Below, piece by piece: positions 580 through 21,293 of a DNA stretch of 64,000 nucleotides. Position 1 is the first letter of the stretch. The number at the start of each line of letters is the position of its first letter. This stretch comes from Gluconacetobacter liquefaciens (GTDB taxonomy: Bacteria > Pseudomonadota > Alphaproteobacteria > Acetobacterales > Acetobacteraceae), in contig NZ_QQAW01000004.1 in the NCBI RefSeq assembly GCF_003350405.1, forward strand, positions 1 to 64,000. Direction: 5' to 3'. A program made the position numbers and the translations under genes. The notes under the pieces were generated by a model. The model did not search any database, was not told the DNA's origin, and saw nothing but the letters and a program-made list of their open reading frames with translations.

Positions 580-1710
580 ATGCGCATCGTTTTCCCTTTT
601 ATCGCCCAGCCCCATCAGATCGCGCATTCCCTGCCGATCGCGATGGAGATCGCGCGCCGGCATCCTGAGATTGCGGTCCATATCGCCTGCCTGACGGACG
701 AGCAGGAGGCCTATATAAGACGCTTGGGTAGCCTCTACCCCGACTCGCACGTCTTTTATGAACGACTAACTCTCCCCCCGCTGTTACGGAGACAACTGAC
801 CCATCGCGGCCCCAGCGTTCTGACTAGATTGGCGGCTCTGTTTTTCAACAAGAATTATTTCGAGACATTTCAGGCTATTGTCGTTCCAGAGCGCACGTCA
901 CTCTATCTGCGCAGGATGGGCGTACGCAGCCCGCGCCTGATCTGGACCCGCCACGGTGCTGGAGACCGCGCTGTCGGCTTTGCCCGAGACGTCCGGCATT
1001 TCGATTTTATCCTGATGGCAGGAAGAAAGCTTGAAAAGCGATTGCTGAGCCAGGGTTCACTCCAGCCCGGACACTACGCCACGGGGGTCTATGCCAAATT
1101 TGATCTCGTGCGGCTGATGCATAGCAACGCAGCGCCGCTGTTCGGCAACAGACGCCCAACAGTTCTCTATAATCCGCATTTCAATGCGCGGCTAACATCG
1201 TGGTATAAATTCGGCACTCAAGTTCTGGACTATTTTGCCACTCAGGACCGATACAATCTTGTTTTCGCACCACATTACCGGTTGTTTGACGCACATCGCG
1301 ACAAGGCCGCGAGTATTCTGCGCACCTATGAGGGGATACCGCACATGCTCATCGATCCAGGCAGTACCAGGAGCGTCGACATGACCTACACGATGGGCGC
1401 CGACCTCTATCTAGGCGATGTCAGCAGCCAGGTCGCCGAATTTCTGATCGAGCCGCGTCCCTGCCTGTTTCTTGACGCGCATGAGACGAAATGGCACGAC
1501 AATCCCGACTATCTGTTCTGGTCCCTGGGGCCGGTGACTGACACGGCTGCCAGCCTTGACCAAGCTCTGGACGGTGCCGTTGCCGGGCACCCGGGTTTCC
1601 TTGACCGGCAAAAATCATATATACGCGAAACCTTCGGCCTCGCGGATATCGAGCCGACAGCGCCGATTGGCGCGGACGCCATCGTAGAATTCCTTCGAAA
1701 GGCGCATTGA
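580..1710 (+). CDS. CDP-glycerol glycerophosphotransferase-like protein
   Basis: This 376-aa protein resembles the GT-B-like CDP-glycerol glycerophosphotransferase (TagB/TagF) family. It has an HGAGDR stretch near residue 126, comparable with the HGxP motif of that family, and a late GDVSSQVAEFL segment comparable with the donor-binding D.SS motif. No signal peptide or membrane helix is evident, so it should act at the inner face of the membrane. It lies 48 bp upstream of the acyl-AMP ligase on the same strand. With the lipid kinase and CDP-lipid synthase nearby, transfer of glycerol phosphate or a similar headgroup to a sphingolipid is an attractive inference. Polysaccharide glycerol-phosphate modification is the alternative. 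Confidence 0.6.
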   Translation: MRIVFPFIAQPHQIAHSLPIAMEIARRHPEIAVHIACLTDEQEAYIRRLGSLYPDSHVFYERLTLPPLLRRQLTHRGPSVLTRLAALFFNKNYFETFQAIVVPERTSLYLRRMGVRSPRLIWTRHGAGDRAVGFARDVRHFDFILMAGRKLEKRLLSQGSLQPGHYATGVYAKFDLVRLMHSNAAPLFGNRRPTVLYNPHFNARLTSWYKFGTQVLDYFATQDRYNLVFAPHYRLFDAHRDKAASILRTYEGIPHMLIDPGSTRSVDMTYTMGADLYLGDVSSQVAEFLIEPRPCLFLDAHETKWHDNPDYLFWSLGPVTDTAASLDQALDGAVAGHPGFLDRQKSYIRETFGLADIEPTAPIGADAIVEFLRKAH

Positions 1711-1758: not shown

Positions 1759-3516
1759 GTGGAAGATTCGTTACCTGAAATGACACTCGATCCGACTCCG
1801 ACAGATTCTGGTCAGGCGCGACGCCTGGGCGATTTTGCAACGTTTCCGGAAGCCTTGGATTACGCGGCCCTTGGGCAGGCGGGATTCAATGTTTATTCCG
1901 GGCGCGGCCAACTGCTGGAGTCCCTCCCCTACCGAACATTGCGCGAACAGGCCCTGGATGTCGCACGGCGACTGCTGACGCTTGGGCTGCGACCTGGTGA
2001 ACGGGTCGCGATCGTCGCAGAAAGCGATGGTGACTTCGCGCGGATCTTTTTTGGTTGTCAGTATGCGGGCCTGGTGCCGGCTCCGCTGCCACTGCCGGTC
2101 GCATTCGGCGGGCGCGAAGGCTATGTGACGACCCTGCGCGGCATGATCGAAAGCGCCGGCGCCGTCGCCGTGATCGTGCCCGACATCATTGCCGGCTGGA
2201 CAGGCGAGATCATCGACGGCTTCGATCTGCGTTTCGGCGGGAGTCCAGCCGAACTGATGGCCCTGCCGGTCGAACCAGTCACATTGCCGGCTGTCTCGCC
2301 GGACGACCTCTCCTACCTGCAATTCTCCTCGGGCAGCACGCGCTTTCCGATGGGGGTGGCGGTCACCCAGAAATCGGGCATGGCCAATGCCCGCGCGATC
2401 GCCCGCGACGGCCTGAAGGTCCGCGAAACCGGTGACCGATGCGTGTCCTGGCTGCCGCTCTATCATGACATGGGCCTCGTCGGCTTTTTCCTGACGCCGG
2501 TCACCTGTCAGTTGACCGTCGATATGCTGCCAACGCGCGAGTTTGCCCGTCGTCCCCATGTCTGGCTGGATTTGATCAGCCGCAATCGCGGTACTATCTC
2601 CTACAGCCCATCCTTCGGTTTCGAACTGTGCGCCCGCCGTGCCTCGACGGTTACGCTGGAACTGTCCTGCTGGCGCGTCGCGGGTATCGGTGGCGACATG
2701 ATCCGTCACCACATCCTGGAAGAATTCGCCGAACGCTTCGCCGCATCCGGTTTCGACGGAAGGGCCTTTACCGCCAGCTACGGCATGGCCGAGGCCACGC
2801 TGGCCATCAGCTTCGTGCCCCTGCATACGGGTATACAGACCGATACCGTCGATCTGCGCTTCCTGGAAACGCAGGGTATCGCGCGCCCGTCGAACGATCC
2901 TTCCCATGCTCTCCGGACTTTCATCCTGTGCGGCAAGGTCCTGCCCGAGCATGAACTGGAAGTGCGTGACCCTGCCGGTCGTCGCCAGCCGGATCGCAAG
3001 GTCGGCACCATTTTCGTCCGTGGCCCCAGCCTGATGCGCGGCTATTTCAACCAGCCGCAGGAGACCCAGCGCGTCCTGGATGCCGATGGCTGGCTGAATA
3101 CCGGTGACCTCGGCTACATGATCGACGGACAGGTGGTCGTCACCGGCCGCGCCAAGGACCTGATCATCATCAACGGCCGCAATATCTGGCCGCAAGACCT
3201 GGAATGGTCGGCGGAAACCGAAATCGGCGCGCTACGCAGCCGCGATGTTGCCGTCTTCTCGATCGATCAGGAAAAAGGCGAGAAGGTCGTCGCCCTGATC
3301 CAGTGCCGCGCCGCCACCCCCGAAGCCCGCGAAACCCTGCGCAACGAGGCCGCCAGCCTGTTCCGCCGCCAGCATGGGGTCGATGTCTCGGTCATCCTGA
3401 TCCCGCCCCATACGCTGCCGCAGACTTCATCGGGGAAACTGACCCGCGCACGGGCCAAGGCCATGCTGCTGTCGGGCGCCTTCGACTCGGTCAGCGAAAC
3501 CGCGTCGGTCGCGTGA
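1759..3516 (+). CDS. Fatty acyl-AMP ligase / acyl-ACP synthetase (AasR-like)
   Basis: This 585-aa adenylate-forming enzyme is of the FAAL type. The P-loop reads SSGSTRFPMGV near residue 190, and the C-terminal hinge region GRAKDLIIINGRNIWPQDLE matches FAAL-type acyl-AMP ligases that load acyl carrier proteins. The GTG at 1759 gives the longest frame; an ATG at 1780 is a possible alternative. A small ACP and serine palmitoyltransferase follow. In Caulobacter an acyl-ACP synthetase (AasR), an ACP (AcpR) and Spt are needed for ceramide synthesis, and this trio reproduces that module. The enzyme most likely charges the ACP at 3711 with a long-chain fatty acid in the cytoplasm. Confidence 0.85.
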   Translation: MEDSLPEMTLDPTPTDSGQARRLGDFATFPEALDYAALGQAGFNVYSGRGQLLESLPYRTLREQALDVARRLLTLGLRPGERVAIVAESDGDFARIFFGCQYAGLVPAPLPLPVAFGGREGYVTTLRGMIESAGAVAVIVPDIIAGWTGEIIDGFDLRFGGSPAELMALPVEPVTLPAVSPDDLSYLQFSSGSTRFPMGVAVTQKSGMANARAIARDGLKVRETGDRCVSWLPLYHDMGLVGFFLTPVTCQLTVDMLPTREFARRPHVWLDLISRNRGTISYSPSFGFELCARRASTVTLELSCWRVAGIGGDMIRHHILEEFAERFAASGFDGRAFTASYGMAEATLAISFVPLHTGIQTDTVDLRFLETQGIARPSNDPSHALRTFILCGKVLPEHELEVRDPAGRRQPDRKVGTIFVRGPSLMRGYFNQPQETQRVLDADGWLNTGDLGYMIDGQVVVTGRAKDLIIINGRNIWPQDLEWSAETEIGALRSRDVAVFSIDQEKGEKVVALIQCRAATPEARETLRNEAASLFRRQHGVDVSVILIPPHTLPQTSSGKLTRARAKAMLLSGAFDSVSETASVA

Positions 3517-3710: not shown

Positions 3711-3962
3711 ATGAGTGAAACGGTCGCGGACGTCTCTGCCCTGATCATCCAGACGCTGCTGGCGAATCCCAAAGTCCCCCGCGACATCAGCGGCAGCAGC
3801 AAGATCGTCGAAGATCTGGCCTTCGATTCACTCGCAGTCATGAATTTCGTGATGGAAATCGAGGATTCCCTCGATGTGTCCGTTCCGCTCGACCGGCTTG
3901 CCGACATCCGCACCATCGACGACCTGGCCAACTGCATCGTGTCGCTCAAGCAGGGCGGCTGA
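3711..3962 (+). CDS. Acyl carrier protein dedicated to sphingolipid synthesis (AcpR-like)
   Basis: This is an 83-aa acyl carrier protein. The phosphopantetheine attachment serine lies in FDSLAVMNF near residue 40, giving a DSL motif as in ACPs. It differs from the fatty-acid-synthesis ACP at 19027 in sequence and context. It starts 194 bp after the acyl-AMP ligase and ends 4 bp before the serine palmitoyltransferase start, so it is very likely translated with Spt. By analogy with Caulobacter AcpR it would present the acyl chain to serine palmitoyltransferase. The acyl donor role is an inference from gene order. Confidence 0.85.
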   Translation: MSETVADVSALIIQTLLANPKVPRDISGSSKIVEDLAFDSLAVMNFVMEIEDSLDVSVPLDRLADIRTIDDLANCIVSLKQGG

Positions 3963-3966
3963 CTCC

Positions 3967-5163
3967 ATGTCGATCTTCTCCAAATACGAGCCGCTGGCCC
4001 GTTCGCTGGCGGCCGTGACCCATGGCGGAGGCCGCAACCCGTTTTCCGTCGTGATCGACCATCCCATATCTTCGACCGTGGGCGTGATCGAAGGGCGCGA
4101 GACCCTGCTGTTCGGCACCAACAATTACCTGGGCCTCAGCCAGAGCGAAGCGGCGATCGAGGCCGCGATCGACACGCTGCGGACCCACGGCGTCGGCACC
4201 ACCGGATCGCGTATCGCCAACGGCACCCAAGGGCTGCATCGCCAGTTGGAGGAGCGCATCGCCGCTTTCTTCCGCCGCCGGCATTGCATGGTGTTCTCGA
4301 CCGGCTATCAGGCAAATCTGGGTATGATCTCGGCCCTGGCCGGCAAGGACGATTACCTGCTGCTGGACGCCGACAGCCATGCCAGCATCTATGACGGCAG
4401 CCGGCTCAGCCAGGCCCAGGTCATCCGCTTCCGGCATAATGATGCCGACGACCTGCACAAGCGCCTGCGGCGGCTGGACGGCACCCCAGGCGCCAAACTG
4501 ATCGTCGTCGAAGGCATCTACTCGATGATGGGCGACGTGGTACCGATGGCCGAATTCGCGGCGGTCAAGCGCGAAACCGGCGCCTGGCTGCTGGCCGACG
4601 AAGCCCATTCCGTCGGCGTCATGGGCGAGCACGGCCGCGGCGTCGCCGAATCATGCGGCGTGGAGAACGATGTCGATTTCGTCGTCGGCACCTTCTCCAA
4701 GAGCCTCGGCACGGTCGGCGGTTACTGTGTTTCCGACGATGACGGGCTGGACCTGATCCGCCTGTGCTCGCGGCCCTATATGTTCACCGCGTCGCTGCCG
4801 CCCGATGTGATTGCCGCCACCATGGCGGCCTTGAGCGAACTGGAACAACGGCCGGAGCTTCGGCACCGCCTGATGGACAATGCCCGGCGCCTGCATGCGG
4901 GCCTGAATGCCATCGGGCTGCGCACCGGCCTGCAGGCCAGCCCCGTCGTATCGGTGGTGCTGGACGAGATCGACGAGGCCGTGCGGTTCTGGAACCGGCT
5001 CCTGGATCTGGGCGTGTACGTCAATCTCAGCCTGCCGCCCGCCACCCCCGACCAGCACCCACTGCTGCGAACCTCGGTGATGGCAACGCACGACGCCGCC
5101 CAGATCGACCAGGCGATCGAAATCTTCGCCATCGTGGCTCGCGAGCTGGGCCTCGGTCAGTAA
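3967..5163 (+). CDS. spt: Serine palmitoyltransferase
   Basis: This is a 398-aa PLP-dependent alpha-oxoamine synthase. It condenses serine with a long-chain acyl thioester to give 3-ketosphinganine, the first committed step of sphingolipid synthesis. The segments TTGSRIANGT, STGYQANLGMIS, DADSHASIYDG, DEAHSVG and the PLP-lysine motif TFSKSLGTVGG match soluble bacterial Spt (Sphingomonas type) more closely than BioF or Kbl. The ATG at 3967 is chosen because an earlier start would overlap the ACP; it encodes MSIFSKYEPL and fits the family length. CerR and bacterial ceramide synthase, also needed for ceramide, are not in the window. The 3' end converges on the CDP-lipid synthase gene. Confidence 0.88.
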   Translation: MSIFSKYEPLARSLAAVTHGGGRNPFSVVIDHPISSTVGVIEGRETLLFGTNNYLGLSQSEAAIEAAIDTLRTHGVGTTGSRIANGTQGLHRQLEERIAAFFRRRHCMVFSTGYQANLGMISALAGKDDYLLLDADSHASIYDGSRLSQAQVIRFRHNDADDLHKRLRRLDGTPGAKLIVVEGIYSMMGDVVPMAEFAAVKRETGAWLLADEAHSVGVMGEHGRGVAESCGVENDVDFVVGTFSKSLGTVGGYCVSDDDGLDLIRLCSRPYMFTASLPPDVIAATMAALSELEQRPELRHRLMDNARRLHAGLNAIGLRTGLQASPVVSVVLDEIDEAVRFWNRLLDLGVYVNLSLPPATPDQHPLLRTSVMATHDAAQIDQAIEIFAIVARELGLGQ

Positions 5164-5243: not shown

Positions 5244-6203
5244 TTACCTGCGGAAGACCCCAGCCCCCTGCAACCGCCAGAGCAGCCGAGGCAGGCAGAT
5301 CAGCGGATGCCGGGCCTCGAACGGCGTCAAGGCGAGGTCGAAGCCGCTATGGCGCCGCACTTTCCAGGCAATATAGCGCGCACCGCCAGCGAAGGTGAAC
5401 GCCGCCTTGAACAGGCGCGCGACATTCAGCGGACGCCCCATATCGGCGCGCACCCGCCATTGGCGCTCCGCTCGGGCGCGTGCTTCCGCCGGAACCACCG
5501 GATATAACGTCTCACCCTCCTGCCTGAACGACAGGCCGGACGCCGCCCAGGCCGCCGGCAGCAACGCCGCGAACCGCGTCCCCAATTCGCCGGCCAACAG
5601 CATGGTGGCGCGATTTCCCCCCTCGACCCGCAATTCCGCGGCATAGGTCCGGCGAAACAGGCTTTCCCAATAGACCAGAGCCGATCCGCTCTCCGGACCA
5701 AGCATGGCCGCCCACCAGGCAGCCACCCCCACGGCACGGATCAAACACCCCAGAATCGCGTCCGCCGCCACCCCATCGCGCACCCATACCAGCCGCGCCG
5801 GCTGACAGAAACGGGCCCAGATCGTGGTGTCCAGGCAGCCACGCGCCGTTAACGTCCGGAACTGCCCAAGGGTCAGAATGGCAACCTTGGCCCGGACAGT
5901 CCGGCCGTCGATGATGCGCTCGTGATATTCGACGTTCGGCGGCAACAGAGCGTTCGCCTCGCGCGCCGCCCTGCCGCGCACCCAGTCGGCCTGCCGCTCC
6001 AGCACGATATAGAAATCGAGGATGCCCTCCGGGTCCATCTGACGCAGACCCGACCCGTAGAACAGGACGCCCAACACCGGTGCATTCCCGACCAGTTGGC
6101 CGACAAAAGCCGTCACCACCGGCTCCACAGGGCGGACCAGTTCGTCGGTCAGAATGCGGGCAACCCGCCCGGCGGCGAGAGGATCGTGTCGCACGTCATT
6201 CAT
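5244..6203 (-). CDS. Tam41-type CDP-lipid synthase (putative CDP-ceramide synthase)
   Basis: This 319-aa protein aligns by eye with mitochondrial Tam41/Mmp37, a nucleotidyltransferase-fold CDP-diacylglycerol synthase. The shared landmarks are YGSGLRQ followed by LDFYIVL (Tam41 YGSGVxxQ...LDFxF), the block EYHERIIDGRTVRAKVAIL, a W-x-R-F-QP segment like LYxAGRLQKP, and a later A...AV..A...LGPES block. Such enzymes convert a phosphatidic-acid-like lipid plus CTP into a CDP-lipid. The ATG at 6203 is 6 bp after the stop of the upstream lipid kinase, so the two form an operon. Beside a ceramide-kinase-like protein and Spt, CDP-ceramide is a plausible product. Conventional CDP-diacylglycerol is the alternative. 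Confidence 0.72.
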   Translation of the reverse strand: MNDVRHDPLAAGRVARILTDELVRPVEPVVTAFVGQLVGNAPVLGVLFYGSGLRQMDPEGILDFYIVLERQADWVRGRAAREANALLPPNVEYHERIIDGRTVRAKVAILTLGQFRTLTARGCLDTTIWARFCQPARLVWVRDGVAADAILGCLIRAVGVAAWWAAMLGPESGSALVYWESLFRRTYAAELRVEGGNRATMLLAGELGTRFAALLPAAWAASGLSFRQEGETLYPVVPAEARARAERQWRVRADMGRPLNVARLFKAAFTFAGGARYIAWKVRRHSGFDLALTPFEARHPLICLPRLLWRLQGAGVFRR

Positions 6204-6208
6204 GAGAA

Positions 6209-7180
6209 TCAGGCATTCCGGATAAAATCGAAGGCTGGCCCCGCCGACAGATAGGTCTGCCCATCCGAACCGGCATCCAGGATCTCGCCGTCCAGCACGA
6301 AATCCCCCGTCAGCCGCAAGGCCAGACGATCGGCCCGGCCACGCAGATAAGAAGGCGAGCGATCCATCCAGGCCGCGGGCCGCCCACGCAGGACCGACCA
6401 CGTCGCGGAGAGCAGATGTTCAGGGAAAGCCCCAACATTCAGATAGGAGAGTCCCGCCCCTTCCCGCGCCGCGAAGGGCCACATCCCTCCGGGGAGACCG
6501 TCCAGCGTCGTGGCCAGGAACAGGAAGCAATCCGCCGTCCGAGGCACCTCGTCCCCCACCGCCAACGTCACGGAATCGCCGGCCAGCCATTTACGGCGCG
6601 TCGCGCGAAAGACCAGCCGCCCCAGGGAGGACGCGATCGCAATCCCAACGGCCAGTTCATGCGAAAAGCGATTGAGGATGACCGGCCGATGGGCGATCCG
6701 GATTCCGCGCGTAAAGGCGGCAGCACCATGGAACATCCCCAGCACAGCCGGACGCGCCGGATCGGACCAGCGAACGGCCAGCGCATCGCGCCGCCGGAGG
6801 CAACGCCGCAGCCCCCCCTCGCTTGCCAGAAGACTCAACCGCTCAAGCGCCGCCGTGCCACGCAGGCCAAACCCCACATCGGCGGCGATCAGGTTGGTAT
6901 TCCCCGACGGCAGCACGGCGAGCGCCGGCAATGCATCCGCCGGATAAGCTTGATAAATGGCGGACATGACGTCACTGACGGTACCATCCCCGCCATCGAT
7001 CGCGATCACTCCGACCTCGCGCCGCGCCAGTTCAGCCACGATCTCCACCAGACCGGGCCGGGATGCCGAATGAAAGAACAACGGCCCCAACACCTGTGAC
7101 GCCCGCTGACCGAACGAACCGTCTTCACGGCCATTCCGACGGCTGCGCGGATTATGAATCAGGGCAAACCGCTCGCTCAC
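6209..7180 (-). CDS. Diacylglycerol/ceramide kinase family lipid kinase (CpgB-like)
   Basis: This is a 323-aa member of the DAGK catalytic (LCB5-type) family. The N-terminus carries the family motif IHNPRSRRNG. The nucleotide-binding GGDGT lies at about residue 63 within AIDGGDGTVSDV, followed by LPSGNTNLIAADVG. It should phosphorylate a lipid hydroxyl using ATP at the cytoplasmic membrane face. In Caulobacter a kinase of this family, CpgB, is the ceramide kinase. Its place between Spt and a Tam41-type synthase argues for ceramide as substrate, although diacylglycerol is possible. It is transcribed divergently from the phosphoesterase at 7301. Confidence 0.78.
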   Translation of the reverse strand: MSERFALIHNPRSRRNGREDGSFGQRASQVLGPLFFHSASRPGLVEIVAELARREVGVIAIDGGDGTVSDVMSAIYQAYPADALPALAVLPSGNTNLIAADVGFGLRGTAALERLSLLASEGGLRRCLRRRDALAVRWSDPARPAVLGMFHGAAAFTRGIRIAHRPVILNRFSHELAVGIAIASSLGRLVFRATRRKWLAGDSVTLAVGDEVPRTADCFLFLATTLDGLPGGMWPFAAREGAGLSYLNVGAFPEHLLSATWSVLRGRPAAWMDRSPSYLRGRADRLALRLTGDFVLDGEILDAGSDGQTYLSAGPAFDFIRNA

Positions 7181-7300: not shown

Positions 7301-8197
7301 GTGAACGAAACGACCCTGGCCCACCTGTCCGATCTGCATCTGGCACATGACGGACTACGCTTTCCTGCCTCGGCGCTGCTGAACAAGCGCATGACAAGCC
7401 AACTCTCCTGGCGGCGCCGGCGCCGGTTCCTGCATGTCGATACTGTTCTGGACGCGCTCGTCACAGACCTCCGCGCGATGGCGCCGGACGCAGTCGCCCT
7501 GACCGGGGACCTGACCAATCTGGGCCTCCCGGTCGAATGCCGACGCGCGGCAGCCTGGGTTGCAGCCCGCCTGCCCCGGCAGACCGCGATCATCCCCGGC
7601 AACCACGACATGCTGGTGCGCGAACCGTGGGATGCCACGCTGGGGGCCTGGAAACCCTGGATGGCCGCCCGGCCGGACGATTTCCCCTTCGTCCGCCGCT
7701 TCGGCCCTGTCGCACTGATCGGCGTCAATTCCGCCTGCCCCACCCCCTGGTTTTCCGCCGCCGGGCGGATCGGCGCGTCCCAGGCCGCCCGCCTGACCGA
7801 AATCCTGCACGAAACCGGCCGCGAAGGCGCCTTCCGCGTCGTCATGATCCACCATCCGCCGGTTCCCGGCATCGTCACCCGCCGTAAGGCGCTACAGGAT
7901 GCCGGACTGTTCGCGACCGCCATCGCCCGGTCAGGCGCCGAACTGATCCTGCACGGCCACAGCCATCGCTCCGGCCTGTCCTCTCTGCCCGGCCCCACGG
8001 CGACGGTGCCGGTAATGGGCATTGCCTCGGCCTCGATGCTCGCTCCGGGCCAGGAACGCACCGCCGCGTGGCACCATATCCGCGTCGCCGGTACCGAACG
8101 CGGCTATTCCGCCGAAATCCGCCGTCGCCTGATCGCACCGGGCCAGCCGGTTCGCGAACTGCCCCCCTGGCGCTTCGATGCCTATCGCCTCCCCTAG
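7301..8197 (+). CDS. Calcineurin-like metallophosphoesterase
   Basis: This 298-aa protein has the complete dimetal phosphoesterase motif set in order: DLHLAH near residue 11, GDLTN, GNHDM, HHPP and GHSHRS. It resembles small bacterial phosphodiesterases acting on cyclic nucleotides or lipids. The start is a GTG at 7301, preceded by a GGAGGA ribosome binding site at 7290-7295. It reads away from the lipid kinase and towards lptF, whose start is 12 bp after its stop. The substrate cannot be read from the sequence; a pyrophosphate or phosphate ester in the sphingolipid pathway is only a contextual guess. Confidence 0.78.
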   Translation: MNETTLAHLSDLHLAHDGLRFPASALLNKRMTSQLSWRRRRRFLHVDTVLDALVTDLRAMAPDAVALTGDLTNLGLPVECRRAAAWVAARLPRQTAIIPGNHDMLVREPWDATLGAWKPWMAARPDDFPFVRRFGPVALIGVNSACPTPWFSAAGRIGASQAARLTEILHETGREGAFRVVMIHHPPVPGIVTRRKALQDAGLFATAIARSGAELILHGHSHRSGLSSLPGPTATVPVMGIASASMLAPGQERTAAWHHIRVAGTERGYSAEIRRRLIAPGQPVRELPPWRFDAYRLP

Positions 8198-8208
8198 ACG
8201 ATGCCTGT

Positions 8209-9432
8209 ATGAATTACCCGACAATGACGCGCGCGCCTTTCCCTTCCGCCTTGCTGCAAAGGATTACGCCGGGAACCCTGGACCGTTATCTGGTACGGCA
8301 GATGGCCCCGCCCTTCCTGATCTCGCTGGCCGTGGTCATGACCGCGCTGCTGCTGGAACGGCTACTGGTGCTCCTGAACGTACTGGCGGCGGACGGCGGC
8401 ACGCTCAAGGTTTTCGCCGGTCTGCTGGCCGACCTTATCCCGCATTATCTGGGCCTGGCCCTGCCGGCGGCGATCTGCGTCAGCGTCTTCGCCGTCGTGC
8501 GGCGGATGAGCCAGAACAACGAAATCGACGCCCTGATGGCCAGCGGCGTCTCACTGCTGCGCATCGCACGCCCCTTCATCCTCGTTGGCGCGGCCATGGG
8601 CCTGGTGGGGTTCAGTCTCTATGGCTTCATCCAGCCCTATGCCCGCTACGATTTCCGACAGGCGATGTATTTCGCCGCTCATGCGGGCTGGGCTCCCCAC
8701 CTGCAAAGCGGAATGTTCGCCACTCCCTCCGACACGCTGATGCTGACGGCGGACCGGGTCGATGGCGCCGGCACCCGCCTGCATCACGTCTTCATCCGCG
8801 ACCGGAGCGACGGCCTGGAACGCGACATCTCCGCCGAGAGCGGAACCTTGCGGATCGCCGACGACCGCACATCGGTCCGGCTGGACCTGAAGCACGGTAC
8901 CATCGTCACCGAGCGGGAGGGCGAAACACCAACGCTGGTGCTGTTCGACACCACCACCCGCCTATTCAATACCGTCTCCCAGGCCCACGCCTTCCGCCTC
9001 CGCGGCAATGACGAGCGGGAGCTGACCCTGTTCGAACTGCTGCACGACGTGCGCACCGGCGATCCAACGATCCGCCGCCCCCACCTGGTCGCCGAACTCC
9101 ATTTCCGCCTCGCCCGCGCATTGGCCATTCCCTTCATCCCGATCCTTGCGTGCGCGCTGGCAGGCATGGCCAAACGCCAGCGACGCAATCTGGGCCTGGC
9201 CATCGCCGCCATCAGCCTGGTCGGCTTCGATCACGCGCTACAACTGGGACTGAGTCTCGTCGCCAGCCGCGCCATGTCGCCCTGGCTGGTCATATGGGGT
9301 CCGTTCGTCCTGTTCTGCGGCTGCTGCGTCTGGCTGATCGCGCGCCGGTCCGGATCGGCGGGGGCCGGCCCGATCTGGCGGCGCTCCTTCGCCCGGCTGC
9401 GGGCACGTCCAACGGCCAGCCCGTCCTCATGA
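8209..9432 (+). CDS. lptF: LptF-type lipid export permease
   Basis: This is a 407-aa YjgP/YjgQ-family permease with about three N-terminal membrane helices, a periplasmic beta-jellyroll (around residues 130-270) and about three C-terminal helices, as in LptF. In the Lpt system such permeases extract lipopolysaccharide from the inner membrane together with LptB2. The start is set at the ATG at 8209 (MNYPTM); an ATG at 8224 is also possible. Its stop overlaps the lptG start. Alphaproteobacterial lptF-lptG is normally followed by lptD, surA and pdxA, but here a fatty acid hydroxylase follows, so this pair may be a paralogue serving a sphingolipid. Confidence 0.8.
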   Translation: MNYPTMTRAPFPSALLQRITPGTLDRYLVRQMAPPFLISLAVVMTALLLERLLVLLNVLAADGGTLKVFAGLLADLIPHYLGLALPAAICVSVFAVVRRMSQNNEIDALMASGVSLLRIARPFILVGAAMGLVGFSLYGFIQPYARYDFRQAMYFAAHAGWAPHLQSGMFATPSDTLMLTADRVDGAGTRLHHVFIRDRSDGLERDISAESGTLRIADDRTSVRLDLKHGTIVTEREGETPTLVLFDTTTRLFNTVSQAHAFRLRGNDERELTLFELLHDVRTGDPTIRRPHLVAELHFRLARALAIPFIPILACALAGMAKRQRRNLGLAIAAISLVGFDHALQLGLSLVASRAMSPWLVIWGPFVLFCGCCVWLIARRSGSAGAGPIWRRSFARLRARPTASPSS

Positions 9433-10535
9433 GCGCGCGTCCTCCATCGCCGGCACGCCACGTCCTGATCGGCTATCTCACCCGCGAACTGCTCGGACGA
9501 ATCCTGACGACGGCCGCTATCCTGCTGGCACTTATGGAAGTCCTGGCGCTGCTGGAACAATTGACCCCGATCCTGGAACGACACCAGGGCGCACGCGGCA
9601 TCGCCTATTACATGCTGCTGCACGCACCGCTGCTGGTGGGCGGCACCCTGCCGCTGGCGGTCCTGATCGGCTCACTGGTCCTGCTGATACAGATGACGAC
9701 CGGCAGCGAGATCGCGATCCTGCGCGCCGCCGGCCTGACCACCCCCGGCCTGACCCGCCTGATGCTGCCGGCGATCCTCGCGCTCGGCGTTGCCGGCGCC
9801 CTGATCGACGATCAGATCACCCCGCGCACCGAACGGGCGCTGGCAAGCTGGTGGAACCGCACCGATCCCCATCCCGAAGCCGGGCACGGCTTCTGGTTCC
9901 GCTCAGGCATGACGCTGGCGGATATCGGCTATGTGGCGCAAGGCGGCACGACCGTCACCCATGTCGACCTGTATCAGCGCGACCCGAACGGCCGGCTGCT
10001 TCGCACCGTTCACCTGAACACGCTTCGCTATGCACACGGCACCTGGATCGGCGATGGCGGCCGCAGCCTGGAGCCGACGGGGGCTACCGTCCGCACGGCC
10101 ACGCTCCTGCCGGCACCGGCTGTGGACCATGGCTGGCCGGCCGGGCTGCGCCCCACGGACATGATCCGGCTGTCGATGGACACGCCCCCGCTTTCCGTCG
10201 CCACCATCATCGCGATCCTGCGCGGGCACGCACCCGCGTCACAGCCGCCGGCGGCCCTGCGCACCGCACTGCTGGCACGGCTGCTCACCCCCTTCAGCTT
10301 TGCGGTAATGCTGTTATTGGCCCTGCCGGTGGTCTATATCCCACCACGAAGCGGAACGCGGAGCTGGCTGCCGGTCTGGTGCCTGGGCGCCGGCCTGCTG
10401 TTCGTGGTCTTCCAGGGCATGCTGCGGGCGCTGGGCAATGCCGGCACGCTGCCCGCCCCGGCGGCGACGCTACCCGGCATCGTCATCTTTACGCTCGCCG
10501 TCTGTGCCCTGGTGTTGAGGATTGAAGAGAGATGA
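9429..10535 (+). CDS. lptG: LptG-type lipid export permease
   Basis: This is a 368-aa partner of the preceding LptF, with the same layout: helices near residues 25-45, 60-85 and 100-125, a periplasmic domain, and three C-terminal helices. The cytoplasmic segment TTGSEIAILRAAGL matches the coupling helix that contacts LptB in this family. The ATG at 9429 overlaps the lptF stop (ATGA), showing translational coupling. Its own stop overlaps the hydroxylase start in the same way, tying a lipid permease to a lipid-modifying enzyme. LPS is the default substrate; a sphingolipid is the alternative suggested by context. Confidence 0.8.
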   Translation: MSARPPSPARHVLIGYLTRELLGRILTTAAILLALMEVLALLEQLTPILERHQGARGIAYYMLLHAPLLVGGTLPLAVLIGSLVLLIQMTTGSEIAILRAAGLTTPGLTRLMLPAILALGVAGALIDDQITPRTERALASWWNRTDPHPEAGHGFWFRSGMTLADIGYVAQGGTTVTHVDLYQRDPNGRLLRTVHLNTLRYAHGTWIGDGGRSLEPTGATVRTATLLPAPAVDHGWPAGLRPTDMIRLSMDTPPLSVATIIAILRGHAPASQPPAALRTALLARLLTPFSFAVMLLLALPVVYIPPRSGTRSWLPVWCLGAGLLFVVFQGMLRALGNAGTLPAPAATLPGIVIFTLAVCALVLRIEER

Positions 10536-11311
10536 TCGGCACGACCCTACACAACACGTCTCTGCGCACCGGCCGGAGCTTCGACCTGGGGAAGATGAAT
10601 CTCCGCCAGTTGTGGATCGCCTACCTGACCTATCCGACGATCCTGCTCTACATCGTTCTGGCCGTGATCAGCTTCGTCGTCCTGGCGCGGAATTTCCCCG
10701 GCATCGGCCCGACCCTGATCGCCGCAGGCGCCGTCGTCGCGGTCTACCCGCTGGCGTGGTACATGATCCATCGCTTCATCCTGCACGGCCGCTTCCTCTA
10801 CCGGATGAAATGGACGGCAACGCTGTGGAAGCGCATCCATTTCGACCATCATCAGGACCCGCACCTGCTGGACGTTCTGTTCGGCTCGCCGCTGAACACG
10901 ATTCCCACCATCGCGATCATCACCCTGCCGATCGGCTACCTGATCGGCAATGTCGGGGGTGCCGCGGCGGCCATGGGCACCGGGCTGGTCATTACCTGCA
11001 TCTACGAATTCTTCCACTGCATCCAGCACCTCAACTACAAGCCGCGGATGCGCTGGATCCAGAAGATGAAGCAGCGCCACGTCCTGCATCATTTCCATGA
11101 CGAGGACGGCAATTACGGCATCACCAGCTTCGTCGTCGACCGCGCCTTCGGCACCTATTATGTCGACGCCCGCGCACGGCCACGCAGCCCGCACGTCTTC
11201 AACCTGGGCTACGACCTGGAAGAAGCCAACCGCTATCCCTGGGTGATGGAACAGACCGGGGCGCCGCCGCGCGACCGGCCCGACGGCGCAACCTCGCGGA
11301 ACGCGGCGTGA
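10532..11311 (+). CDS. Fatty acid hydroxylase / sterol desaturase superfamily protein
   Basis: This 259-aa integral membrane di-iron enzyme has the histidine boxes of the fatty acid hydroxylase superfamily: HRFILH near residue 88, HFDHHQDPH, HCIQH and HVLHHFH. It has about four hydrophobic segments. Members insert hydroxyl groups into acyl chains or sphingoid bases. Acetic acid bacteria are rich in 2-hydroxy fatty acids, much of it in sphingolipids, so 2-hydroxylation of the ceramide acyl chain or C4 hydroxylation of the long-chain base are the leading ideas. The start ATG overlaps the lptG stop, and its end overlaps the GTG start of the next gene. Confidence 0.8.
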   Translation: MIGTTLHNTSLRTGRSFDLGKMNLRQLWIAYLTYPTILLYIVLAVISFVVLARNFPGIGPTLIAAGAVVAVYPLAWYMIHRFILHGRFLYRMKWTATLWKRIHFDHHQDPHLLDVLFGSPLNTIPTIAIITLPIGYLIGNVGGAAAAMGTGLVITCIYEFFHCIQHLNYKPRMRWIQKMKQRHVLHHFHDEDGNYGITSFVVDRAFGTYYVDARARPRSPHVFNLGYDLEEANRYPWVMEQTGAPPRDRPDGATSRNAA

Positions 11312-12099
11312 CCTCCACCCAACCCGCGCCCGGCCCGCTGACCGTCCTGGTCCTGGCCGGCACCCGCGCCGGTACGGCGGACCCGATGGCCACCGCCGCC
11401 AACGTCTCGCACAAGGCGATCCTGCCCGTGGCCGGCCGGCCCATGATCGCGCGCGTGCTCGATGCGCTCGCCGCCTGCCCACGCATCCGCCGCATCGTCA
11501 TCAGTATCGAAACCCCAGGCATCCTGGAGGGGCTCGAACTCGACCATCCGGTGGATTTCCTGCCCCCCGCCGCCGGCCCCAGCGCCAGCGTGATGGCGGC
11601 CCTGCGCACGCTCGGCACCCCTCTGCTGGTCACCACCGCCGACCACGCCCTGCTGCGCCCGGAATGGATCGAAACCTTCCTCGATTCCGTCGATGCGCAC
11701 TGCGACATGGCCGCGGCCGTGGCGATGGAGGCCGACATCGCGCGCGATGTCCCCGGCACGAAACGCACGATGATCCGCTTGGCCGACGGGGCCTTTTCCG
11801 GCTGCAACCTGTTCCTGTTCCGCACGCCCGCCTCGATCGGCGTCGTGGAACTGTGGCAGCGGATCGAACAGGAGCGCAAACGGCCGATCCGCATGGCGCG
11901 CCTGCTGGGGATCGGAACCTTGCTGCGCTACATGACCGGCGGCCTCACCCGCTCAGCCCTGTGCGCCCGGGTAGGCAGCCTGAGCCAGGCCGCAGTCAGG
12001 CTGGTCCCCCTGCCCGACGGCCGCGCCGCCGTGGATGTCGACAAGCCCGCCGATCTGCTCCTGGTCGAATCCCTGCTCCGGAATCCCGCCGCCTCCTGA
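11308..12099 (+). CDS. Nucleotidyltransferase (MobA/GlmU-like NTP transferase)
   Basis: This 263-aa protein has a nucleotidyltransferase Rossmann-like core. VLVLAGTRAG near residue 12 corresponds to the LAxGxGTR nucleotide loop, SHKAILPVAGRPMI contains the conserved lysine, and TTADHALL resembles the metal-binding TxGD/ADxP strand. Enzymes of this type activate sugars, polyols or small alcohols with NTP. The GTG at 11308 overlaps the hydroxylase stop (GTGA), so it belongs to the lptFG-hydroxylase operon. It may make the activated headgroup used by the nearby transferases; the substrate is unknown. Confidence 0.65.
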   Translation: MTSTQPAPGPLTVLVLAGTRAGTADPMATAANVSHKAILPVAGRPMIARVLDALAACPRIRRIVISIETPGILEGLELDHPVDFLPPAAGPSASVMAALRTLGTPLLVTTADHALLRPEWIETFLDSVDAHCDMAAAVAMEADIARDVPGTKRTMIRLADGAFSGCNLFLFRTPASIGVVELWQRIEQERKRPIRMARLLGIGTLLRYMTGGLTRSALCARVGSLSQAAVRLVPLPDGRAAVDVDKPADLLLVESLLRNPAAS

Positions 12100-19542: not shown

Positions 19543-20292
19543 TCAGGGCATTGCCATCCCGCCGTTGACGTTCAGCGTGGTGCCGGTGATCCATCCGGCC
19601 TCGTCCGATGCCAGATAGGCGACGGACGCAGCAATATCCTCGGGTTTGCCCATCCGTCCCAGCGGAATGCCGCCCAGCAGCTTCTCGCGCTGCGCCTCCG
19701 GCAGCACGTCGGTCATCGCGGTCTGGATAAAGCCCGGCGCCACGACATTGACGGTCACGCCGCGCGAACCGGCTTCCTGCGCCAGCGACTTGGTCATGCC
19801 GATCATGCCCGCCTTGGCCGCCGCATAATTCGCCTGGCCGGCATTGCCGGTCACGCCGACGATCGAGGCGATGCTGACGATTCGCCCCGCCCGGCGGCGC
19901 AGCATGCCCTTCAGCACCGCGCGACACAGGCGGAAGGGGGCGGCCAGATCCACCTCCATCACGCGGTTCCAGTCCTCGTCCTTCATGCGAATCGCCAGTC
20001 CGTCCCGCGTCAGGCCGGCATTATTGACCAGGATATCCAGCGGCGCGCCGGCCGCGACCTCGGCGGCGGCCACCAGCGCGTCGGCCGCCTTCGGGTCCGA
20101 CAGGTCGGCGGGGCACACATGAACCCGCTCGCCATCGGGCGCGATCTCACTGGCCACGGCGGCCAGCACCGCCTCACGCGTGCCGGAAAGTACCACGCGC
20201 GCGCCCTGGGCATGCAGGGTCCGCGCGATCGCGGCACCGATTCCCCCCGATGCGCCCGTCACCAGCGCGGTCTTGCCATCCAACCTGAACAT
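19543..20292 (-). CDS. fabG: 3-oxoacyl-ACP reductase
   Basis: This is a 249-aa short-chain dehydrogenase that reduces 3-oxoacyl-ACP with NADPH. It has the cofactor motif TGASGGIGAAIA near residue 13, NNAG near 88, and the catalytic Ser-Tyr-Lys set in SIASIVGVTGNAGQANYAAAKAG. The ATG at 20292 is preferred because an AAGGACG ribosome binding site precedes it. An ATG at 20325 overlaps the fabD stop (ATGA) and would add 11 residues, so coupling from there is possible. It is part of the fabD-fabG-acpP-fabF cluster. Confidence 0.92.
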   Translation of the reverse strand: MFRLDGKTALVTGASGGIGAAIARTLHAQGARVVLSGTREAVLAAVASEIAPDGERVHVCPADLSDPKAADALVAAAEVAAGAPLDILVNNAGLTRDGLAIRMKDEDWNRVMEVDLAAPFRLCRAVLKGMLRRRAGRIVSIASIVGVTGNAGQANYAAAKAGMIGMTKSLAQEAGSRGVTVNVVAPGFIQTAMTDVLPEAQREKLLGGIPLGRMGKPEDIAASVAYLASDEAGWITGTTLNVNGGMAMP

Positions 20293-20321
20293 CAGCCCGT
20301 CCTTGCCTGAAAAATCATCTC

Positions 20322-21293
20322 TCATAGCGACGCGAGAAACGCCTCGATATCCGCCGGGGTGCCGACCGAGCGGCTCGCCGCATCGGGCGCGATGCGCCGC
20401 ACCAGCCCGGACAGCACCTTGCCGGCCCCCAGTTCCACAAAACTGTCGACGCCCATCGCCGCCATCGCCTCGACACTTTCGCGCCAGCGCACGGTGCCGG
20501 TCACCTGCCGCACCAGCAGGTCGCGAATCGCCTGCGGGTCGGTCACCTTGGCCGCCGAGACATTGGCCACCAGCGGCACGATCGGCGGCGCAATTTCGGC
20601 CCGCTCCAGCGCCTCGCCCATCGCATCGGCTGCCGGGGCCATCAGCGAGCAATGAAACGGCGCCGACACCGGCAGCACCACCGCCCGCTTCACCCCGCGC
20701 GCCTTGGCAATCGGAATCGCCCGCTCGATCGCCGTCGCCCGGCCCGAAATAACGATCTGTCCGCCGCCATTATCGTTGGCCACTTCAATGATTTCCGTGC
20801 GGTCCGGCTCGCCTTCCACGCGCACGATCGCGGCCTCGGCGCAGATCGCGCGCGCCTCGTCCAGATCCACGCCGATCAGCGCCGCCATCCCGCCCTCGCC
20901 CGCCGGCACCGCTTTCTGCATTGCCGTGCCGCGCTGGCGCAGCAGGCGCGCCGTCTGCGCGATCCCGAACGATCCCGCCGCCGCCAGCGCCGAATATTCT
21001 CCCAGCGAATGCCCCGCCACCAACGCGGCCACGCGCTTCAGCTCCAGCCCGCCTTCCTTCTCCAGCACCCGCAGCACCGCCATAGACACCGCCATCAGGG
21101 CAGGCTGGGTATTTTCGGTGCGGGTCAGATCTTCCATCGGCCCCTCGAAGATCAGGGCGGAAAGCTTCTGGTTCAGCGCGTCGTCGACTTCCTGGAACAC
21201 CTCACGCGCCGGGGCGAAGGCTGCGGCCAGTTCGGCGCCCATCCCGACGGACTGGCTACCCTGACCGGGGAAGATGAAGGCGTGAACGGTCAT
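20322..21293 (-). CDS. fabD: Malonyl-CoA:ACP transacylase
   Basis: This is a 323-aa acyltransferase that moves malonyl from CoA to ACP. Motifs are FPGQGSQ near residue 8, the nucleophile motif GHSLGEYSALAAAG near residue 95, and the catalytic histidine in VSAPFHCSLM near 205. The ATG at 21293 gives the standard length. It leads the fatty acid cluster and its stop overlaps the alternative fabG start. The gene begins about 70 bp downstream of the YdcF gene on the same strand. Confidence 0.93.
   Translation of the reverse strand: MTVHAFIFPGQGSQSVGMGAELAAAFAPAREVFQEVDDALNQKLSALIFEGPMEDLTRTENTQPALMAVSMAVLRVLEKEGGLELKRVAALVAGHSLGEYSALAAAGSFGIAQTARLLRQRGTAMQKAVPAGEGGMAALIGVDLDEARAICAEAAIVRVEGEPDRTEIIEVANDNGGGQIVISGRATAIERAIPIAKARGVKRAVVLPVSAPFHCSLMAPAADAMGEALERAEIAPPIVPLVANVSAAKVTDPQAIRDLLVRQVTGTVRWRESVEAMAAMGVDSFVELGAGKVLSGLVRRIAPDAASRSVGTPADIEAFLASL

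Follow-up and report, generated by a model that had tools for sequence, protein, structure and literature searches.

A 319-aa protein encoded on the minus strand (5244..6203) of a 64,000-nucleotide stretch of Gluconacetobacter liquefaciens DNA (hereafter the window) is a counterpart of CpgC (CC_1161 / CCNA_01219) of Caulobacter crescentus, as judged by gene order and by a Caulobacteraceae MAG relative with 46% identity, and its modelled structure indicates a Tam41-type nucleotidyltransferase. The gene is paired with that of a CpgB-like lipid kinase, and the two enzymes probably form a short route in which the kinase produces ceramide-1-phosphate and the CpgC-like protein then converts CTP and ceramide-1-phosphate to CDP-ceramide and PPi. 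How ceramide-1-phosphate becomes a head-grouped phosphosphingolipid is a missing step in the synthesis of a lipid that helps Caulobacter to survive when it lacks LPS. Should CpgC make CDP-ceramide, then sphingolipids would gain an activated-lipid logic like that of CDP-diacylglycerol (CDP-DAG), by way of a Tam41-fold enzyme and not of CdsA, and co-occurrence with the kinase tells which genomes should hold the CDP-ceramide route.

The gene pair and its ceramide gene block

The sequence-only reading of this DNA had described a Tam41-type CDP-lipid synthase in an operon with a ceramide-kinase-like enzyme beside spt, and this arrangement was borne out. The ATG (6203) of the CpgC-like gene, whose product is the proposed CTP:ceramide-1-phosphate cytidylyltransferase, lies 5 nt beyond the stop codon (6211-6209) of the upstream gene on the same strand, which encodes the CpgB-like lipid kinase and proposed ceramide kinase (6209..7180, minus strand, 323 aa; Pfam DAGK_cat 4.3e-11). 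The pair is convergent with the plus-strand gene of serine palmitoyltransferase (Spt, 3967..5163; NCBIfam NF047599, 636 bits, cut-off 500), with position 3967 taken as its ATG start; in the Spt searches, that of NF047599 included, the query began two codons before this. In a search that may omit the window's own record, the nearest named relative of the 319-aa protein is from Gluconacetobacter dulcium (92% identical).

Further plus-strand genes surround the pair. Before spt lie an AasR-like fatty acyl-AMP ligase / acyl-ACP synthetase (1759..3516; NF006624, 912 bits, cut-off 600) and a small AcpR-like acyl carrier protein (3711..3962), the latter assigned by eye from its DSL motif and position. 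On the other side are a metallophosphoesterase (7301..8197), two LptF/LptG-type permeases in two ORFs (8068..10535; PF03739, 208 bits for the first ORF only, both ORFs falling in one sequence cluster), a fatty-acid hydroxylase family protein (10532..11311; PF04116, 1.7e-21) and a MobA/CofC-like nucleotidyltransferase (11308..12099). By Pfam and locus layout, the phosphoesterase and the MobA/CofC-like protein take the places that CC_1158 and CC_1153, respectively, have in the Caulobacteraceae MAG locus (L066). A weak match to the CerR profile (15.8 bits) was found at 19546-20769. In contrast to the Caulobacter block, the window gave no profile match to CpgA, CpgD, CerS or the HIT gene at E 1e-3, and a search for CpgA across the complete genome of this bacterium was negative at E 1e-20.

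The assignment to CpgC follows from position next to spt and cpgB within a ceramide/CPG block. In L066 the order is CpgD, CofC-like nucleotidyltransferase, CerS, LptF/G-type ORF, HIT, phosphoesterase, CpgA, CpgC, Spt, CerR and AasR (labels from position, Pfam scans of representatives and, for HIT, by eye; the ACP and second Lpt gene were left uncalled by a simple ORF picker), which follows CC_1152 to CC_1165 of C. crescentus as given in PMC11324152, except that cpgB is absent between cpgA and cpgC. Published schemes have CpgC needed in Caulobacter to make ceramide phosphoglycerate (CPG) from ceramide-1-phosphate (PMC12275187), and CpgB is described as a ceramide kinase (PMC10331486, PMC12275187). 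According to PMC11324152, CC_1161 and CC_1160 are both needed for CPG in C. crescentus, CC_1161 mutants contain no CPG and moderately raised ceramide, and CPG2 needs CC_1159, CC_1153, CC_1152 and, partly, CC_1158. CpgD is described as making CDP-glycerate, which is proposed for the second glycerate (PMC12275187).

Tam41 likeness in sequence, fold and residues

The similarity of the 319-aa protein to Tam41 is real but remote. In a Pfam scan the window protein matched neither Tam41 (PF09139) nor CdsA (PF01148) and had no Pfam match at E 1, and NCBIfam likewise gave none. The likeness to PF09139 that the earlier reading led one to expect was thus absent from the protein itself and present in a relative, with profile comparison and fold in agreement: among 21 family sequences scanned (the 20 of alignment A1, which include the window protein, and L127 from a phylum-wide search), only L010 of A1 passed (28.8 bits against a cut-off of 24), and L016 of A1 (23.1 bits) and L127 (21.8 bits) fell just under the cut-off. 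Since the window protein does not match PF09139, we class it with the CpgC family, as a protein of Tam41 fold, and do not call it a Tam41.

Alignment of A1 with two Tam41 PDB segments by hhalign gave E 3.8e-5 over 156 columns (residues 43-206) with a probability of only 43.8, the template consisting of two sequences; column-shuffled A1 controls gave E 0.25 or worse in 20/20. Searches of PDB sequences by phmmer and hmmsearch with the window protein, A1, L010 and A2 missed Tam41, which was reached by structure comparison and profile-profile alignment. PF09139 had a single match in 299 genomes of the phylum, below cut-off and identical with the CpgC-like L127, so that no true proteobacterial Tam41 was obtained; it had none in 14 control genomes, and the viral contigs scanned held no relative of the window protein.

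Structure prediction agreed with the assignment made from the letters. An AlphaFold model of the window protein from a 20-row alignment (mean pLDDT 93.9, pTM 0.91) is predicted to have the Tam41 fold, a nucleotidyltransferase domain plus a second domain. Ranks 1-4 of a Foldseek search of the PDB were all Tam41 (E 7.3e-7 to 6.3e-6), and VIA-align gave Z 17.3 over 229 residues (range 24-271) for a CTP-Mg-bound Firmicutes Tam41 (7ecd) and Z 15.9 and 15.8 for Schizosaccharomyces pombe Tam41 (6ig4 and 6ig2), against 7.3 for the next family, the aminoglycoside nucleotidyltransferases.

The window protein carries YGSGLRQ (from residue 49) and LDFYI (62-66). Conservation was assessed in 96 distinct near-full-length sequences, the window's included, which were left when short and identical ones were dropped from 122 profile hits in loci. 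Unchanged in all 96 are Y49, G50, S51, D63, P89, K106, W129, R131, Q134, E190 and R192, as well as a C-terminal block of R263, K266, T270, F271, Y277, K281 and P300. At its own C-terminus, Tam41 has an amphipathic segment of positive charge that binds the membrane. Ordinary nucleotidyltransferases have a second acid at the place of residue 65, which in this family is never acidic (Y in 94/96, otherwise C or F). The Tam41 single-aspartate pattern is therefore kept, D63 being invariant and aligned with D in both Tam41 sequences, and such a single-acid nucleotidyltransferase motif has been described for Tam41 (PMC11646218). In the YGSG...LDF motif pointed out earlier, YGS and the lone aspartate are family features and the fourth residue is not (C in 45/96, G in 41/96). 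A1 has 15 invariant positions up to residue 194, and in a joint alignment both Tam41 sequences carry the same residue at nine of them (Y49, G50, S51, D63, K106, R131, P135, R192 and E194). Both have D in place of E190. The other five (P88, P89, A108, W129 and Q134) are not common to Tam41, a point against the proposed reading.

Distribution of CpgC with kinase, Spt, CpgA and CdsA

Among 190 genomes drawn from the class, the window's genome included, CpgC (E 1e-3) was found in 21 and CpgB (E 1e-12) in exactly those 21, and the other 169 had neither CpgC nor a CpgB-type kinase (Fisher p 2e-28, phylogeny ignored). The CpgB cut-off, the only one run, had been set beforehand to exclude other lipid kinases, and the weakest match was 7.5e-16. 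Cluster genes can be inherited together, which speaks against reading co-occurrence as function. In two genomes (G123 and G186; layouts of L116 and L119) the kinase taken as CpgB is on another contig than cpgC; these could be other lipid kinases, and if they are true CpgB, the link exceeds operon inheritance. In a third genome, G027, cpgC stands at the start of one contig and a short cpgB frame on a different one, as a contig break might produce. G093 has two CpgB-type kinases, one beside cpgC (C45) and one elsewhere (C40).

Spt (E 1e-120) was detected in 21 of the 190 genomes, 19 of which are among the 21 with CpgC; G066 and G079 show a strong Spt and no CpgC, and in G027 and G071 CpgC is present with Spt below cut-off, that of G071 adjoining cpgC by profile (L118). 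CpgA (A3, E 1e-20) occurs in 12/190, all within the CpgC set. A similar picture emerged from the best 80 of 584 confirmed genome_contigs loci (45 of these 80 assigned by name to acetic-acid bacteria, and some of the 80 cut by contig ends), where CpgB was found in 77, always on the CpgC strand, Spt in 76 and CpgA in 18. Three of these loci are without cpgB, one cut by the contig end (L070) and two with an uncut cpgC (L064 and L066); in the latter two, cpgA directly precedes cpgC with no cpgB between, and the kinase could be encoded at another place, as in G186.

A second CpgA-like CDP-alcohol phosphotransferase, with LDSVDGK in place of LDTVDGK, was observed in L064, L074, L084, L086, L088, L090, L112, L115 and L119. 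Its gene lies apart from the cpgA-B-C operon and adjoins LptF/G-type genes in L074 and L088. By score, 5 of the 12 CpgA genomes have it (two copies in G037 and G165) and none other of the 190 does at E 1e-20. The nesting of the second CpgA within CpgA, and of CpgA within CpgC, suggests stepwise longer head groups.

A separate cdsA, which the sequence-only reading had considered, was found throughout: a CdsA-family gene (PF01148) is kept in all 21 CpgC genomes, and the window's genome has a single one on another contig. The idea that CpgC replaces CdsA was therefore rejected.

Proposed reaction, its alternatives and known systems

A kinase and a nucleotidyltransferase of the type that places CMP on a lipid phosphate, lying beside ceramide synthesis genes with CdsA encoded elsewhere, lead to the reaction of CTP with ceramide-1-phosphate given at the outset. 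The CpgB-like kinase and the CpgC-like protein would act in sequence: the latter, with its one conserved motif aspartate (D63), would bind CTP, and the phosphate of ceramide-1-phosphate would attack CTP at its alpha-phosphate, with CDP-ceramide and pyrophosphate as products, after which a CMP-displacing transferase would add the head group (glycerate in Caulobacter). Ceramide-1-phosphate is the likely substrate and CDP-ceramide the likely product of this putative cytidylyltransferase; along with these, we infer the nucleotide (CTP), the next enzyme and an association with the membrane. Action of CpgC before CpgA fits the distribution, in which CpgA is found only inside the set shared by CpgB and CpgC.

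Since the Tam41 enzymes described use phosphatidate (PMC11646218, PMC7018664) and the fold is that of Tam41, the protein might instead be a second CDP-DAG synthase, a bacterial Tam41 placed in a sphingolipid cluster and supplying CDP-DAG. We consider this unlikely, because all 21 CpgC genomes already have a CdsA-family gene, CpgC goes with a CpgB-type kinase in every one of them and both are absent from the other 169, and the supply of CDP-DAG would leave the need for ceramide-1-phosphate unexplained; moreover, the reported effect of losing CC_1161 is abolition of CPG with a moderate rise in ceramide (PMC11324152). It is quite unlikely that CpgC links ceramide-1-phosphate directly with glycerate (or phosphoglycerate), with no free nucleotide-activated lipid. 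Published schemes do place CpgC at the step from ceramide-1-phosphate to CPG, with the mechanism given as "unidentified" (PMC12275187 and, in May 2026, the preprint PMC13228409), and an enzyme doing both steps would explain the limited set of downstream genes described below; however, fold and common residues point to a nucleotidyltransferase that uses CTP, and Olea-Ozuna et al. regard the direct reaction as not very favourable in energy (PMC11324152). Use of some nucleotide other than CTP to activate ceramide-1-phosphate, the nucleotide having been left open by those authors (PMC11324152), is very improbable given that the closest structure, 7ecd, was solved with CTP-Mg and that both Tam41 sequences agree with the family at nine of 15 invariant positions.

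With CDP-ceramide as the preferred product, the next enzyme may be sought among CDP-alcohol phosphotransferases (PF01066), where the only gene common to all 21 CpgC genomes is of PgsA type, being the best PF01066 match of each (120-134 bits); the names PgsA and PssA were assigned by score and, in the window's genome, also by inspection of neighbours. No dedicated CDP-ceramide user present in every CpgC genome was found among the PF01066 genes, which counts against the CDP-ceramide reading. G026 and G158, CpgC-positive members of the same family as the window's bacterium, have two PF01066 genes each; G058 and G080 also have two, one of them CpgA, and G080, in 160 contigs, may miss a gene. This leaves three possibilities: housekeeping enzymes accept CDP-ceramide, the enzyme differs between lineages, or it lies outside PF01066.

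Two candidates were tried. The third PF01066 protein of the window's genome (in L107) was rejected as a general CDP-ceramide user, being unmatched in G026 and G158 at E 1e-8. Its gene is overlapped by that of a weakly CpgD-like nucleotidyltransferase (L107:9386-11174; 60.5 bits, the other ten hits having 182-484), and the two overlapping genes are possibly a CDP-polyol pair. Replacement of CpgA by a TagF-like neighbour was unsupported as a rule, such a gene being found in 3/21 CpgC genomes, two of which (G058 and G175) also have CpgA. In the window the neighbour concerned is a GT-B fold protein (580..1710, plus strand, 376 aa) which, by structure comparison, is probably of TagF (CDP-glycerol glycerophosphotransferase) type and has no Pfam match over cut-off. 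The teichoic-acid polymerase TagF gave the highest Z (23.8 over 325 residues), but a capsule multienzyme (22.9) and UDP-GlcNAc 2-epimerases (22.7) scored almost as high, and Foldseek placed an epimerase first (6.3e-10, TagF 7.9e-10). Two histidines, numbered as in the 375-aa query, H124 (TRHGAGDR) and H231 (FAPHYRLF), are unchanged across 11 sequences; they are possible counterparts of H444 and H548, the histidines of TagF that PDB titles name. The protein might be a CDP-glycerol/glycerate-type transferase for sphingolipid head groups. Two more copies of this protein stand in tandem at G000:C1:389093-391332.

More speculatively, and at a fairly low probability, CDP-ceramide made by CpgC could be a general branch-point of bacterial sphingolipid synthesis from which CMP-displacing enzymes differ by lineage. 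These would be of CpgA type in some; in acetic-acid bacteria without CpgA, the role would fall either to a TagF-like transferase or to housekeeping PgsA/PssA, which would turn CDP-ceramide into ceramide phosphoglycerol or, with phosphoserine as the intermediate stage, ceramide phosphoethanolamine. Sphingolipids and glycerolipids would thus share head-group enzymes.

The idea of an activated ceramide is not new. In 2024, Olea-Ozuna et al. noted that InterPro assigns a CDP-DAG-synthase domain to CC_1161, and they proposed an NDP-activated ceramide (PMC11324152). Among the open-licence papers searched, we found none for the term 'CDP-ceramide' (variants of the term gave one paper, unrelated by title and abstract), no assay of nucleotide-activated ceramide formation by CpgC, and nothing on topic by title for Tam41 with sphingolipid and bacteria; Acetobacter and Gluconacetobacter have 0 occurrences in the main text of PMC11324152. 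What is new here is the fold match, the residue comparison with Tam41, the kinase pairing in 21/21 genomes, the retained CdsA, the extension of CpgC to acetic-acid bacteria and the limits on the next enzyme.

Among known systems, the Caulobacter CpgC system is closest, with CpgB likewise as the partner kinase and a CDP-DAG-synthase-type domain reported for CC_1161 (PMC11324152). CpgD, a CTP:phosphoglycerate cytidylyltransferase, is also a cytidylyltransferase of the same Caulobacter pathway; unlike CpgC, it is of COG1213 type, has a soluble substrate and is needed for CPG2, not CPG, as described in PMC12275187. CdsA has an analogous predicted reaction (CTP with a lipid phosphate) and is present separately in CpgC genomes, but it belongs to an integral membrane family unrelated to the Tam41 type (PMC7018664). 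Tam41/TAMM41, the mitochondrial and Firmicutes CDP-DAG synthase, is alike in predicted fold, with 11-13% identity over structural alignments, and has in common with CpgC the YGS...D motif with one acid, K106, R131, P135, R192 and E194, whereas its context is cardiolipin synthesis and that of CpgC is sphingolipid genes.
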